A DNA stretch of 10,189 nt from an uncultured Oscillospiraceae bacterium (lineage in GTDB: Bacteria; Bacillota_A; Clostridia; Oscillospirales; Oscillospiraceae), in assembly GCA_900754605.1 (NCBI GenBank), contig CAAEDK010000316.1, forward strand, positions 1 to 10,189, given 5' to 3'. Positions 567-10,171 of this stretch are shown here, piece by piece. The translations under genes were made by a program, and so were the position numbers. The notes under the pieces are model-generated. The model saw nothing but the letters and a program-made list of their open reading frames with translations, was not told the origin of the DNA and did no database searches. Every line of letters starts with the position of its first letter. Within the stretch, counting starts at the first letter, position 1.

Positions 567-1550
567 TTACCAGGCATCCTCGCCCTTCACCTCAGGCAGT
601 ACCAACTCCAATGCCTTGATGCCAACCTCGATCATAGAGTCATCCGGCTCAAAGGTGGTAAAATTTTGGAGCCACAGACCGGGAGCAGTGAGCAGTTTTG
701 TAACCGGTCCATCGTGCCGTCCCGCCCAGCGGTTGAACTCATAGCTGACCCCCACAATGATGGGCAGCATCAGCAAATGAGCCACAAACCGCCACAGAAC
801 ATTGTGGACCGGCCAGATTCCAAATACGACGGTAGAAACCAGAATTGAGATGGCAATGACCATGAATAGGAAACTGGTCCCACACCGGGGATGATGACGT
901 GGCTGCTTCCGTACATTCTCAACCGTCAAGGGGAGCCCCGCTTCATAGCAGAAAATAGTCTTATGCTCCGCACCGTGATACTGGAATACCCTGTGAATGT
1001 CCTTCATCCGGGAGCAGAGAGCCAGATAACTCACAAAAATAATCAGCTTCATCAAACTTTCTGCCACATTGCGGACCACCATAGAATCCGTAAACAATGT
1101 CACAATTGAACCCAGAATAGTAGGCAGCAGGAAAAACAGTCCAATGGACATCCCGATTCCCAAAATTACCGAGACCGTCACAAAAAATGAGGCCGCCCGG
1201 TCGCTGCCCAAGGTACGCTCCAACCACGCCTCAAAGCGGGACGGCTCCTCCGCCCCTCCCTCTTCCTCTGGAAAAAACTCCGCAGAGTACATCAAGGCCC
1301 GAACGCCCTCCACCATAGAAGCTACGAAGGTGGCCACTCCCCGAATCAGGGGCAGTCCCAAAATCGGAAAGCGATCCTTGATAAACCGCAGCTGGCTCTC
1401 CCGGATCGCCAGGGTTCCATCTGGCTTACGCACCACTACAGCCTGTTTTTTGGGGCCGCGCATCATAATACCTTCAATGAGCGCCTGGCCTCCACACATA
1501 GTTTTGAACCCACCAGAAGGGCAGGCGCAATTTTTCTCTTTGTTCTGCAT
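567..1550 (-). CDS. DUF1385 family membrane protein (YqhQ-like)
   Basis: This 327-residue protein belongs to the DUF1385/YqhQ family of integral membrane proteins, whose biochemical role is not settled. Visible family hallmarks are GGQALIEGIMMRGP at 20-33, YHGAEHK at 191-197, the HPRCGTSF block at 220-227 and a C-terminal LTAPGLWLQNFTTFEP block at 287-302. The His/Cys-rich conserved blocks could bind metal, but that is inference. Hydrophobic segments lie at about 119-143, 163-180, 227-245 and 251-268. The ATG at 1548-1550 fits an AAAGGAG site, although the spacing of about 12 nt is long and contains a hairpin. A sigma-A-like promoter sits 56 bp upstream, so this gene and prmC can be transcribed separately from the kinase before them. 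A cysteine-containing N-terminal extension (1-18) precedes the usual family start region, so Met18 is an alternative start. Confidence 0.9.
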   Translation of the reverse strand: MQNKEKNCACPSGGFKTMCGGQALIEGIMMRGPKKQAVVVRKPDGTLAIRESQLRFIKDRFPILGLPLIRGVATFVASMVEGVRALMYSAEFFPEEEGGAEEPSRFEAWLERTLGSDRAASFFVTVSVILGIGMSIGLFFLLPTILGSIVTLFTDSMVVRNVAESLMKLIIFVSYLALCSRMKDIHRVFQYHGAEHKTIFCYEAGLPLTVENVRKQPRHHPRCGTSFLFMVIAISILVSTVVFGIWPVHNVLWRFVAHLLMLPIIVGVSYEFNRWAGRHDGPVTKLLTAPGLWLQNFTTFEPDDSMIEVGIKALELVLPEVKGEDAW

Positions 1551-1646: not shown

Positions 1647-3074
1647 TTACGTTTCAATCGGCAGGACGATGGTCACCATGCAGCCGCCCCCTTGCGCATT
1701 TCCGATGTCGAGCCTGCCCTCATGTCGGGTAACGATTTCCTCACACACCGCCAGACCGATGCCGGAGCCGCGGGCTTTGGAACTGCCCTTGTAGAATTTA
1801 TATTTCACATGGGGCAGTTCCTCCTCAGGGATACCGGGTCCGTAATCCCGGATGCGGATCACCGCCTCTTCTCCCTCCCGGGCAATGGATACATCGATCC
1901 GCTTGCCGGAACCGCCGTGCTTGGCTGCATTGTCCAAAAGATTGCAGAACACCTGACGCAGCCGCTCCGGGTCTCCGCTGATGGGCAGCATCTCCTCCGG
2001 ACAGTCCTGATAGGTCAGTTCAATGCCCTCACGCCGGAAAAACTCCCGATAGGTATACACTGCATCCTCCAGTTCCGCCTTCAGATCCAGCGGCTCTACC
2101 GACAGAGTAAAACGGCCATCCTCAATGCGGGAAAACTCTAACAATTCTTCTACCATGTTGGTCAGGCGCCGAGCCTCAGAAACGATGATATCCATTCCCT
2201 TCCGTACATCACGTGGGTCTTTCAATTCACCGCCTTGGATGGTCTCCGCCCACCCGGTGATAGCCGTCAGCGGAGTACGAAGCTCGTGGGAGACGGAGGA
2301 TATAAACTCCGATTGAGTCTTTTCCGACTGCTTGATTTTCAGGGACATATCGTTGATCGTATCGGTCAGTTCTCCCACCTCGTCATCAAATTTTTTCTCA
2401 ATCTGCACACCATAGCTCCCATCGGCGATGAGCCGGGCAGTCTCTGTTATGCTGGCCAAAGGCTCTACGATCGAGCGGACAAAGTAAAGATTCGAGAAGT
2501 AGACCAAGGCTAAGATAGCCGCTCCCAGCAAACAGGCCAGACCCATCGCCAGGAAAAACTGCCAATCGATGGCCACCAAAGAGGTCACATATCGCACCAC
2601 TGCCACCGTCTGCCCATGGTAGATAATAGGGGCGGAGGCTGCCACCACCCGCTCACCAGTATGGGGATCGGTGCCTTTCCAGGCCACAGCTTCCTGATAG
2701 TTCAGCGCACTCTGAATATCCTGTGTCCCCGGCGTTGTACCGGCAGCCAGATCATTGCTAGAGTACTGCACCGCCCCAGTGACATCCAGAAACTGGAGTT
2801 CCAATTTTGTCTTATCCTCAAACTTCTGCACTGCATTCTGGGCATTGGTCCAGTATTGACTGCGCGTAAAGGAGGCAAATCCCCCCGCATCGTCCGCCGC
2901 CCTCCGTTTCAGGTCGTTCATGGTACTGGAGTAGTAGTAGCTCCACATGGCGGTGGAAAAGGTCCCCAGCGCCAGGGCCAGCACCAGCAGAACCACACCC
3001 ACGCTATTGATGAGCCAGCGACGACGGATACCCCGGATCTTTACTTTATCGGTCACAACGGCCTTCTTCGCCAT
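1647..3074 (-). CDS. Membrane sensor histidine kinase (HAMP, HisKA, HATPase_c)
   Basis: This 475-residue kinase should autophosphorylate on a histidine and pass the phosphate to the regulator encoded just upstream. Domains in order: a basic cytoplasmic N-terminus, TM1 at about 22-45, an extracytoplasmic sensor region of about 120 residues (46-168), TM2 at 169-192, HAMP at 193-245, and the HisKA H-box SSVSHELRTPLT with His263. The ATP-binding domain follows, with the N-box around Asn382 (NLLDNAAKHG), G1 DYGPGIP at 410-416 and G2 GSGIGLAV at 436-443. All catalytic motifs are intact and there is no PAS domain. ATG 3072-3074 is preceded by a strong AGGAGGTG site. The signal is unknown. It is a PhoR/ResE-style kinase in architecture. 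The gap to its regulator gene is now 281 bp because of the repeat-flanked block at 3119-3341; without one repeat unit it would be about 58 bp. Confidence 0.95.
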   Translation of the reverse strand: MAKKAVVTDKVKIRGIRRRWLINSVGVVLLVLALALGTFSTAMWSYYYSSTMNDLKRRAADDAGGFASFTRSQYWTNAQNAVQKFEDKTKLELQFLDVTGAVQYSSNDLAAGTTPGTQDIQSALNYQEAVAWKGTDPHTGERVVAASAPIIYHGQTVAVVRYVTSLVAIDWQFFLAMGLACLLGAAILALVYFSNLYFVRSIVEPLASITETARLIADGSYGVQIEKKFDDEVGELTDTINDMSLKIKQSEKTQSEFISSVSHELRTPLTAITGWAETIQGGELKDPRDVRKGMDIIVSEARRLTNMVEELLEFSRIEDGRFTLSVEPLDLKAELEDAVYTYREFFRREGIELTYQDCPEEMLPISGDPERLRQVFCNLLDNAAKHGGSGKRIDVSIAREGEEAVIRIRDYGPGIPEEELPHVKYKFYKGSSKARGSGIGLAVCEEIVTRHEGRLDIGNAQGGGCMVTIVLPIET

Positions 3075-3118
3075 TCGAGCACCTCCTCTCCCAAATTACA
3101 GGGCATTCATCTCGTTTT

Positions 3119-3197
3119 AGACTGCCCCTGTTTCAGCTGCCCCACTTATATCCATAACCCCATACTGTATTCACATAAGTCGGCTTTGTGGGGTTGT
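3119..3197 (-). repeat. Downstream copy of the regulator gene's 3' end (direct repeat, copy 1)
   Basis: This 79-bp segment matches 3342-3420 at 77 of 79 positions (offset 223 bp). It carries the last codons of the response regulator, including the YGYKWGS end and a TGA stop (complement of 3133-3135), plus 14 bp beyond it. The two differences are G/A at 3136/3359, a silent AGC/AGT serine change, and T/C at 3129/3352, past the stop. It is not joined to an open reading frame of its own and is a gene fragment. It adjoins the natural leader of the kinase gene. Confidence 0.92.
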
Positions 3198-3341
3198 TCC
3201 CCAGAGGCACAGCCTATGGGGGCCCCGGCTTTTTTCTGCTCGGGCGGAATAAATCCGCCCTCCGCCAAGGTTTTGGCATCCGGCCAAAACGCTTGTACGC
3301 GCTCACGCACGCCCTGCTCCGCAGGGTGAGGACAACCCCGC
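3198..3341. other. 144-bp hairpin-rich non-coding block between the two repeat copies
   Basis: This block lies between the two 79-bp repeats and has no convincing reading frame. It contains three perfect stem-loops: 3242-3260 (7-bp stem GGGCGGA/TCCGCCC, loop 5), 3271-3289 (7-bp stem TTTTGGC/GCCAAAA, loop 5) and 3312-3326 (6-bp stem CCCTGC/GCAGGG, loop 3). A further 5-bp stem (3189-3203) spans the left junction. The right end holds GAGGACAACCCC (3328-3339), the exact inverse of a site just outside the other edge of copy 2. The layout resembles a small non-autonomous repeat element (MITE- or REP-like) or the scar of a larger insertion. I cannot name a family, and a structured RNA is also possible. 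Confidence 0.55.
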
Positions 3342-3420
3342 AGACTGCCCCCGTTTCAACTGCCCCACTTATATCCATAACCCCATACTGTATTCACATA
3401 AGTCGGCTTTGTGGGGTTGT
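3342..3420 (-). repeat. In-gene copy of the regulator 3' end (direct repeat, copy 2)
   Basis: This 79-bp segment is continuous with the response regulator reading frame and encodes its last 21 complete codons and the stop, then 14 bp of downstream sequence. It is the partner of 3119-3197. Because the regulator frame is intact here, whichever event made the duplication preserved the C-terminal wing of the DNA-binding domain. Confidence 0.92.
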
Positions 3421-4045
3421 CCTCGATCTTGATGCGCAGGCGGCGGATATTCACATCTACAATTTTCAGCTCTCCGAAATAGTCCTTTCCCCACACCGCA
3501 TCCAGGATCTCCTCCCGGGACAATGCCTTTCCCGGGTTTTCCATAAACAACTTGATGATCCCATACTCCACCTGGGTAAGCTTTACCCTCTGGCCATTCT
3601 TCTCCAGGGTACGATTGCGGGTATTCAAACGGAAAGGAGCCTCCACGATCTCATCCAGGGAAGCCACTTCATCCTCACCACCAGTGCGGCGGAACAGGGC
3701 ATCTACCCGTGCAGTCAACTCTGCGGGCGAGAATGGCTTTGTCACATAGTCATCTGCTCCGGTCATTAGGCCAGTGACCTTATCCATCTCCTGAGTCCGT
3801 GCGGTCAGCATAATAATCCCGATCTTATTATCCATCGCCCGGATCCGGCGGCAAACCTCGAACCCGTCAATTCCCGGCAGCATGATATCCAGCAGAGCCA
3901 CCTTGATGCTGGGGTTCGCTTTCAGCGCTGCCAGCGCCTCCTCCCCGGTGCCAGCCTCGATGGTCTCATAGCCCGCGCGCTTCAGATTGATCACGACGAA
4001 ACTGCGGATATTTTCCTCGTCTTCCAATACCAATACTTTTCTCAT
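3356..4045 (-). CDS. OmpR/PhoB-family DNA-binding response regulator
   Basis: This 229-residue regulator has a receiver domain (about 1-118) with the acidic pocket E8-D9-E10, phosphoacceptor Asp53 (LLDIMLPGIDGFE), Thr81 and Lys103 (TKPF). A winged-helix trans_reg_C domain (about 132-228) follows, with the recognition-helix region VDVNIRRLRIKIED and the terminal wing VNTVWGYGYKWGS. It should bind promoter DNA when phosphorylated, most likely by the kinase at 1647-3074. ATG 4043-4045 has AAGGAG at good spacing. It lies 22 bp after the lipoprotein gene, which indicates co-transcription. Length is normal for the family. The odd point is that the 3' end of the gene is duplicated downstream. PhoB, ResD and WalR belong to the same family, and the sequence alone does not decide which physiological role applies. 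Confidence 0.95.
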   Translation of the reverse strand: MRKVLVLEDEENIRSFVVINLKRAGYETIEAGTGEEALAALKANPSIKVALLDIMLPGIDGFEVCRRIRAMDNKIGIIMLTARTQEMDKVTGLMTGADDYVTKPFSPAELTARVDALFRRTGGEDEVASLDEIVEAPFRLNTRNRTLEKNGQRVKLTQVEYGIIKLFMENPGKALSREEILDAVWGKDYFGELKIVDVNIRRLRIKIEDNPTKPTYVNTVWGYGYKWGS

Positions 4046-5535: not shown

Positions 5536-5664
5536 TCGCTCAAGATCCCTCCCCCTGCTGTTCCGTCTTTCCCATCTGAAGAGGCTGGGTAATCCAGGCC
5601 TGGCCGGAGGCCAAGGAACTGTCCACCAGAAAGAGATCTAGATCACACACAGTGCGTATAGATA
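5536..5664 (-). other. Long 5' leader of the lipoprotein operon
   Basis: About 155 nt separate the predicted transcription start from the lipoprotein ATG. The leader contains the palindromes GATCTAGATC (5635-5644) and CCAGGCCTGG (5596-5605), and a TGGCC-TCC-GGCCA hairpin. I see no coding sequence in it and could not match it to a known riboswitch class. Confidence 0.35.
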
Positions 5665-5698
5665 ATGGTATCATACCATAAAGGCACAGTAAAAGCAA
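5665..5698 (-). promoter_or_regulatory. Promoter of the lipoprotein-regulator-kinase operon with a dyad on the -10
   Basis: TTGCTT (complement of 5693-5698) and TATGAT (complement of 5670-5675) are 17 nt apart on the minus strand, and the -10 carries an extended TGG. A perfect 15-bp dyad, ATGGTAT-C-ATACCAT (5665-5679), sits over the -10 and is a candidate operator. The promoter lies just past the terminator of the preceding kinase gene, marking an independent operon. Confidence 0.75.
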
Positions 5699-5721
5699 AA
5701 GAATCCGGATTTTTGTTTCCT

Positions 5722-5768
5722 AAAAAATGAGGGCCGCAGCCCATCTCGATCAGGACAGGCTGCAGCCC
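5722..5768 (-). terminator. Rho-independent terminator after the six-helix kinase gene
   Basis: Read on the minus strand, GGGCTGCAGCC (complement of 5758-5768) pairs with GGCTGCGGCCC (complement of 5731-5741) in an 11-bp stem with one G-U pair and a 16-nt loop. TCATTTTTT follows. It begins 25 bp after the stop of the kinase gene and should end the regulator-kinase transcript. Confidence 0.85.
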
Positions 5769-9276: not shown

Positions 9277-9744
9277 GTGCGGACACAGCTGAAAGCAGAC
9301 CTGATGCTGGTTCTTGTCACCTTCTTCTGGGGGATCTCCTATCTTCTCACCGACCTGGCGCTAACAGAGGTCGGAGTGTTCAGCCTCAACGCCATCCGGT
9401 TCCTACTGGCCTTTTTGGTCGGTTGCCTGTGCTTTCTTCCCCGGCTGCTCCATCCCAGCGCTGCCACCCTCAAGGCTGCTATTGCAGCCGGAGCTGCCCT
9501 GTTCTGTGTGTACACTGCAACCACCTTCGGGGTCAAGTACACCAGCCTGTCAAACGCCGGCTTTCTGTGCGCCCTGCCGGTGGTATTTACTCCCCTACTG
9601 GACTTCCTGTTCTTCCGCCGCAGGCCCTCCCGAAAGCTGGCTCTGGTTCTGATCATGGCGGTAACCGGCATCGCGCTGCTCACCTTGTCTGATGATCTGC
9701 GCCCCGCTTGGGGATATCCTATGTATCCTGTGTGCCCTATCTAA
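9277..9744 (+). CDS. EamA transporter, N-terminal half (five helices)
   Basis: This 155-residue frame starts at GTG 9277-9279 behind AGGGAGGG. Predicted helices lie near 9-28, 36-55, 65-85, 91-113 and 120-138, a full first EamA domain. It includes the helix-1 motif TFFWGISYLLTDLAL and Arg41 in NAIRF, common in this family. The last 11 residues (after LRPA) are out-of-frame tail, ending at TAA 9742-9744. As a five-helix unit it could in principle fold alone, like single-domain DMT members, but the simplest reading is a truncated transporter. Confidence 0.65.
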   Translation: MRTQLKADLMLVLVTFFWGISYLLTDLALTEVGVFSLNAIRFLLAFLVGCLCFLPRLLHPSAATLKAAIAAGAALFCVYTATTFGVKYTSLSNAGFLCALPVVFTPLLDFLFFRRRPSRKLALVLIMAVTGIALLTLSDDLRPAWGYPMYPVCPI

Positions 9745-10171
9745 TGCCATCTACCTCATCATCACAGAGCGTGCAGTAGCCCGTTCCGAAGTGAATGCCT
9801 TTCAGCTTGGGGTCTATCAGCAGCTGGTCACCGGCCTGGGGATGCTGGTTCTCAGTATCTTTCTGGAGGGGCCTGACCTCCCCAGAACCTCCGCTGTCTG
9901 GACCTCCGTCCTGGTGCTTTCTCTGTTCTGCACGGGAGCTGCCTTCCTGATTCAGTCAGTGGCTCTCCAGTACACAACCGCCTCCCATGTGGGTGTCATC
10001 TTCTGTCTGGAGCCGGTATTCAACTCCATCTTCGCCTTCTTTGTGGCCCACGAGGTTCTCTCCCCCCGGTCTTACGCGGGCGCAGCCCTGTTGATGCTGG
10101 GTATTTTGGTGATGGAGATAGACCTGTCCGCTCTGCTTCGACCCCTTCGGCGTGAAAACTCCCGATCCTGA
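9692..10171 (+). CDS. EamA transporter, C-terminal half (five helices)
   Basis: This 159-residue frame can open at ATG 9692, overlapping the first frame by 53 bp, but no Shine-Dalgarno is visible before it. Genuine family-like sequence begins at LGDILCILCALSNAIYLI and covers five helices. These include the domain-typical segments ALQYTTASHVGVIFCLEPVF and SYAGAALLMLGILVMEI. It ends with a short basic tail and TGA. If made at all as a separate protein, it would depend on translational coupling or re-initiation from the first half; otherwise it is the detached second domain of the frameshifted gene. Confidence 0.55.
   Translation: MICAPLGDILCILCALSNAIYLIITERAVARSEVNAFQLGVYQQLVTGLGMLVLSIFLEGPDLPRTSAVWTSVLVLSLFCTGAAFLIQSVALQYTTASHVGVIFCLEPVFNSIFAFFVAHEVLSPRSYAGAALLMLGILVMEIDLSALLRPLRRENSRS

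Follow-up and report, generated by a model that had tools for sequence, protein, structure and literature searches.

The last codons of a response regulator gene in an uncultured Oscillospiraceae bacterium are present twice, on either side of a small block, and the locus raises the question of how a gene end came to be duplicated in this way. The window analyzed is the whole 10,189-nucleotide stretch of contig CAAEDK010000316.1. Its minus strand carries an OmpR-type response regulator gene (3356..4045), recognized by its open reading frame and by matches to PhoB, YycF, OmpR and other families, all below the curated cut-offs, and downstream of it a histidine kinase gene (1647..3074), an open reading frame with matches to WalK, PnpS and other kinases below cut-off. 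Positions 3119-3197 and 3342-3420 form a direct repeat of 79 nt with 77 identical bases and a spacing of 223. A preliminary description of the locus had given the same figures, and its statement that the coding difference between the copies is silent was borne out: the one coding mismatch is silent and the other lies past the stop codon. The window also contains an inverted repeat absent from that description, in which 3328-3342 and 3410-3424 are 93% complementary over 15 nt, so that the block between the copies opens with the reverse complement of the repeat start. The regulator stop lies 282 nt from the kinase start, and no promoter-like or terminator-like site was found within 3000-3500.

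Read along the minus strand, the order is regulator, copy A (3420 to 3342), block, copy D (3197 to 3119), native intergenic stretch and kinase. Copy A (3342..3420) is the gene end in use, with 65 coding nucleotides and 14 nt past the stop, and has one silent coding difference from D. Copy D (3119..3197) repeats the gene end and adjoins the native intergenic stretch; it was delimited by the direct repeat and by alignment of filled with unfilled loci. The inverted repeat and its offsets place a target site at 3410..3424 and, at 3328..3342, a guide-like stretch, here called s', which is the reverse complement of the target over the repeat start; both lie on the minus strand. Since the repeat starts at 3420, the target comprises x (3421-3424) and y (3420 downwards). 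The hairpin block E, about 140 nt in length and located here at 3200..3332 (minus strand), belongs to a structured multi-copy family and scored 133.5 bits in a cmsearch with R1, a covariance model of five such blocks among which the window copy is itself included. The repeat spacing and a comparison of a filled with an unfilled locus (L064/L062, below) suggest that the putative mobile unit consists of A, s' and E, 223 bp at 3198..3420 on the minus strand. Elsewhere in the window, a DMT/EamA-like transporter (by-eye reading) at 9277-10171 is divided between two overlapping open reading frames in different frames, 9277-9744 and 9692-10171, resembling a frameshift.

A scan with the regulator protein, from which the best 80 loci, mostly of Oscillospiraceae, were taken, gave 81 sequences together with the window. 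In five of the 81, namely the window, L001, L022, L039 and L064, the last regulator codons occur again behind the gene. Each second copy matches its own genome and not the other species, and the blocks between the copies are related in all five; in L001 an array A-E-A-E runs up to the contig end. Four further species have the arrangement at this regulator gene, and it recurs at many unrelated loci, which excludes a repeat arising by chance. The preliminary description had offered, as one alternative, a tandem duplication later split by a small element. This alternative was rejected, since the block belongs to a structured family that is conserved, has a stretch complementary to its target and comes with host-specific repeats.

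Empty junctions in relatives, which had been named earlier as a check for insertion, were found at this regulator and at other genes. The clearest is L062, the unfilled sister of L064: their gene bodies are 96% identical, and the intergenic stretch and the kinase align past the insert. Among the loci with a kinase match, the regulator-kinase gap without block was at most 100 nt in 55 of 74 and larger in 19. When the two gene ends of L064 were compared with L062, identity was 86% for D and 82% for A, as against 96% for the gene body; D is not clearly nearer, which was counted against the mobile-unit reading. One weak R1 match near the junction of L047 (E-value 0.1) was not counted as filled. 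Two further junctions hold other sequences, neither with an R1 match. After base 3193 of L017 there is a different 204-nt insert that ends in a copy of about 30 bp of the regulator gene end and is perhaps another gene-end-duplicating family, and after base 4690 of L002, a close relative, there is a 346-nt GC-rich spacer.

R1 was built from the blocks of the five regulator loci and gave hits in all six Oscillospiraceae genomes reached through these loci (68, 38, 12, 21, 15 and 63, with up to 150 candidates scored per genome). Under stricter filters, genomes bearing E around G006, itself included, numbered 16/41 in the family, 11/117 in the order and 2/299 in the phylum. The single-contig genome G311 had no R1 match. 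The phage collection gave one record that matches the block, with open reading frames that look chromosomal by eye. The one R1-matching record of the plasmid collection was pMM59_01, a conjugative plasmid of Pusillibacter faecalis, on which the E copy (L293 2481-2610) has no scored repeat. In Rfam the block matches no family at the Rfam cut-offs, the weak matches being unrelated or lying in the flanks (tRNAs), and E was rejected as a known RNA family. Longer forms of E occur in L001 (4718-4921), L146, L173 (2734-2929), L113 (131-318) and L187, where the third modelled stem is preceded by about 70 extra nucleotides or has about 60 more in its loop; L187 seems to have both. Several contigs of G001, e.g. 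C127, C119, C102 and C115, start or end within or beside E copies, as if short-read assembly had broken at arrays.

The anatomy of the family was evaluated on 111 of 118 R1 matches from 87 sources picked for holding hits, seven partial or weak matches having been dropped by hand. Short flanks or runs of N removed 21 of the 111, which left 90 evaluable copies with tandem copies counted singly. The usual order is gene body, A (the gene end), s', E and D (the second gene end). A direct repeat between the upstream and downstream flanks scored at least 30 in 64 of the 90 copies and 20 to 30 in six more. Repeat lengths ranging from 39 to 196 nt were recorded in the family. An s', scored as a reverse complement of the E-adjacent stretch with a score of at least 8 in the upstream 350 nt, was present in 50/90 copies, as compared with 4/90 for the shuffled and 14/90 for the reversed stretch. 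Of 44 copies with a scored s' at the repeat, 39 have an s' that extends 2 nt or more to either side of the start of D (medians 5 nt before and 8 nt after), and s' is therefore complementary to the uninterrupted target over the insertion point. At positions within s' where the two gene ends disagree, it matches D 13 times, five of them from one copy, and A four times. In 10 same-target groups s' fitted its own site with a mean of 11.26 and orthologous sites with 9.50 (n = 25), its own site being strictly best in 13 of 25.

The same layout was found in G340, a genome outside the model, where 12 of 20 copies had repeats and eight of these 12 had s' (control 0/12). In four distant high-copy genomes only 6/27 copies had repeats, two of the six with s'; the layout is thus not universal, and this result was counted against the mobile-unit reading. 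So were the 20 of 90 copies without a scored repeat, many of which lie at terminators. By-eye reading of the flanks of 21 repeat-less copies placed about 14 beside a terminator-like hairpin and several next to tRNA genes, and L187 has five tRNA genes near its E copy. A second class of E copies beside terminator hairpins was noted in L140, L144, L148, L150, L178, L179 and L191, several with a GGCC-TTCT-GGCC first stem and without a gene-end repeat.

The targets are not peculiar to response regulators. Sixteen target proteins of the hand-picked A/D pairs described below were checked against NCBIfam or Pfam. Family searches gave IF-2, LepA, AsnRS, UvrB, phosphoglycerate kinase, phosphoglycerate mutase, EF-Tu, RNase HI, formate-THF ligase, UvrC, an SRP54-type GTPase, EF-P, class-V aminotransferase, glutamate dehydrogenase, EutC, RNase III and DUF1385. 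The target of L180 was at one point taken for PilT, which was rejected when the family search gave EutC. A DUF1385 gene is also present in the window (567-1550); its own end is unfilled, the window having a single R1 match, and in L043 an E copy with a repeat lies behind the end of such a gene (5611-5743). Most targets carry the insertion at the 3' end with E in the sense orientation; in LepA and UvrC it lies at the 5' end and E is antisense. The gene body is on the A side in most loci read by eye, as would be expected if only gene-preserving insertions survive; L097 (mnmG-like) is an exception.

Filled and unfilled sites were then compared by searching 37 orthologous loci in relatives of G005, covering five G005 targets, with R1. 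The relatives were filled in 1/9 loci for lepA, 1/7 for asnS, 2/6 for uvrB, 1/8 for infB and 0/7 for pgk. The E copies concerned lie in L242, L243, L212, L218 and L202; weak matches in L231 (E-value 0.013) and L220 (E-value 0.018) were not counted. The lepA, asnS and uvrB insertions of the relatives share the x|y of G005 to within one base, and the infB insertion starts 41 nt further on. These sites bear on whether E might be an immobile REP-like repeat, its surroundings produced by replication errors at hairpins: a single event of template switching would create both s' and the repeat, and slippage would create arrays. In keeping with such errors, s' is an inverted copy, as from snap-back synthesis, and tandem copies exist. 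The same-point hits on the same genes in different species are left unaccounted for, as is the orthologue-like divergence of A and D described next, and we regard this origin as very unlikely.

The two gene ends differ as coding sequences do. In 45 A/D pairs, hand-picked as those in which the analyst recognized the gene, 871 codons held 136 silent and 27 replacement differences (136/163 silent), and 139 of 178 base differences fell in third positions. Random change would give an expected silent share of 23% (binomial p ~3e-60, with differences treated as independent). An uncurated run over 71 pairs, in which frames were chosen by open reading frame length and several were plainly wrong antisense frames, gave 154 silent and 91 replacement differences. 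The five 5'-end pairs alone had 28 silent and three replacement differences. The proportion of 136/163 indicates that A and D each evolved as coding DNA. This would be expected of a mobile unit that carries in a substitute for the native end and pushes the latter aside. On the simplest reading of these sequences, A and D would both have been working gene ends until recently, one imported and one native; such silent-type divergence is not what would be expected of a copy that had been dead since an old insertion. In asnS of G005, A and D share a residue absent from the seven relatives compared, which was counted against the mobile-unit reading.

The possibility of old insertions inherited vertically was weighed against these data. 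Gene conversion would keep A and D alike, and E would be retained for a host function, e.g. shaping the 3' end of the message. The uvrB copies agree with this, A/D identity being 0.92 within G005 and 0.93 within G305 and 0.79-0.82 between them. That pattern would fit repeated loss and re-entry from close relatives; gene conversion fits too, but alone would leave D unconstrained. By the analyst's rough estimate a non-coding D would show about one third silent differences, far from the proportion observed, and the 5'-end targets, with E antisense, also differ silently (28/31). Furthermore, the sites are unfilled in most relatives. In favor of vertical inheritance, E copies from different genomes that share a target are often close neighbors. 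In the small same-target clusters (29 members), the best same-target partner ranked first for 11 members and within the first three for 18; the RR cluster takes in L173, which is located at a different regulator. Against it, mean E identity over all pairs was no higher for same-target than for other pairs (0.518, 0.517, 0.507), one cluster of 22 being an artefact chained through tandem E copies. As same-target copies are close neighbors in the small clusters, and not in the overall means, E lineages may keep their target. Taken together, we consider vertical inheritance with gene conversion an unlikely explanation.

The structure of E was predicted with RNAalifold from 118 matches, which gave 24 base pairs, 23 of them with double changes. 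In the stored structure 98.6% of 2631 cells pair, a figure inflated by the fitting of the alignment to the model, and double changes affect 22 of the 24 pairs (437 cells). Covariation is strong, with a score of 0.453 compared with 0.119 in shuffles. A hand count found G-U in 38 of the 2631 cells, and this scarcity favors DNA hairpins. Folding is slightly better for the E strand than for the complementary one (61 vs 38 of 99, mean 1.5 kcal/mol), which is a poor fit to a purely strand-neutral DNA structure and was counted against the mobile-unit reading. On balance the predicted stems lead us to lean, short of proof, toward DNA hairpins.

These observations also bear on an intron-like RNA, in which s' would serve as an internal guide joining x to D, A, s' and E would be cut from the message, and both gene ends would be translated. 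Such an RNA would account for the constraint on both ends, and s' is indeed complementary to x and D read together and at A/D differences follows D rather than A (13 to 4, five of the 13 being from one copy). The antisense orientation of E at lepA and uvrC, the few G-U pairs and the absence of a match to any Rfam intron family, and so to the catalytic core of group I or group II introns, make it a highly improbable explanation.

A search for a partner enzyme covered 15 genomes with E and 11 without, and no mobilizing gene was found to track E among them, a result counted against the mobile-unit reading. PF01797 occurred in 5/15 genomes with E and 3/11 without, and a RAYT-like protein in 8/15 and 5/11; a HUH (Y1) transposase was accordingly rejected as the partner, neither protein tracking E. 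In G005 a RAYT-like gene lies directly behind copy D of uvrB (L260 1300-1794), and in G311, which has no E, one likewise lies shortly behind uvrB.

As to the question raised by the window, the reading that we put forward, with about even confidence, is that a small gene-free mobile element composed of A, s' and E has entered the last codons of the regulator gene at x|y and displaced the native end as D. The unit would consist of a copy of the end of its target gene (A), a guide-like stretch complementary to the uninterrupted target (s') and a hairpin block (E). We infer that s' acts as a guide by pairing with the target over x|y, where the unit would enter; A would make the gene whole again, and the native end, shifted downstream, would become D. 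The most likely route for movement would be through folded single-stranded DNA as the substrate of an enzyme supplied in trans, and units would be repeatedly gained and lost among related strains and species. The proposal leaves the origin of a new s' unexplained, and this too was counted against it.

The preliminary description had also compared the repeats to the attL and attR sites of an element that integrates at a gene's 3' end and restores the frame. In outline this comparison is right: gene-end insertion with the frame kept is supported by the unfilled relatives and by A and D diverging like orthologous gene ends; no integrase-bearing element was seen. Integrative elements, mobilizable or conjugative, that sit at gene 3' ends are bounded by direct repeats of the gene end that restore the target gene, and this is the likeness. 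The units could then be remnants of tyrosine-recombinase elements, with A and D as att sites and the cargo lost, and gene ends and tRNA neighborhoods are typical integration sites. The E units differ in having no integrase or other gene, the 144-bp block in the window being too small for one, and in using one hairpin scaffold at many unrelated genes, each with its target-specific s'. The larger elements bounded by the repeat that had been suggested for a search were not seen either: in 21 copies without a short repeat, the 150 nt that follow E had no long match in the upstream flank (about 3 kb), where scores peaked between 9 and 14.5, and no cargo-bearing version was seen among these copies. 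We regard remnants of this kind as very unlikely. A MITE with a fixed-length target-site duplication was rejected as well, given repeats of 39 to 196 nt and copies with coding-type divergence.

To our knowledge no known kind of element is a gene-free repeat carrying a gene end together with a guide, and no description of the E family was recognized in the open-access literature searched. We suggest, tentatively and with somewhat less than even confidence, a new class of mobile DNA: gene-free hairpin elements that would use a guide of about 12-17 nt to enter chosen ends of conserved genes, would carry the end that mends the gene, and would thereby have swapped the ends of many core genes in each genome between lineages without loss of function. 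If so, they would be a natural, programmable insertion system able to mend the target it enters, acting at core genes such as those for IF-2, EF-Tu, LepA, UvrB and AsnRS, and a force exchanging the ends of core genes between species. They would also account for incomplete copies of gene ends found in these genomes and, perhaps, for contigs that end inside E arrays. The idea is directly testable by changing s' and asking whether the target changes.

Structured nucleic acids with a target-complementary stretch include the IS110 bridge RNA and OMEGA RNA. TIGR arrays share this property (PMC12045711). Unlike these three, E was found without a linked protein, its contiguous guide lies outside the hairpins and its stems look more DNA-like. 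Hairpin repeats of the REP/RAYT and REPIN type, grouped with IS200/IS605-type systems, are another comparison. Membership in either group is not claimed, as IS200-type and RAYT-like transposases do not track E. IS608, of the IS200/IS605 family, has a guide located at a hairpin foot, and this guide base-pairs with the site of cleavage (PMC5934647). The layout of the E units resembles it in combining hairpins with a target-complementary stretch that abuts the hairpin block and, in 39/44 scored copies, spans the junction. IS608 has guides of four nucleotides, a fixed tetranucleotide target and no carried gene end (PMC5934647), whereas s' is much longer and is complementary to the target on both sides of the insertion point. 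In fungal mitochondria, hybrid genes formed through mobile ORFs (Allomyces atp6; Glomus atp6, atp9, cox2 and nad3) are completed by an imported end while the native end is displaced downstream (PMC3630166). Those elements encode a homing endonuclease (PMC3630166), for which the window block has no room; the units described here are gene-free, span about 220 bp, contain hairpins and s', and occur at many bacterial genes, 5' ends included. As for a foreign end coming in and a native end going out, the divergence of A and D is of the silent type and the L064/L062 difference between D and A is small. The likeness to the fungal hybrids is that a carried-in gene end would complete the gene and the native end would come to lie behind the element.
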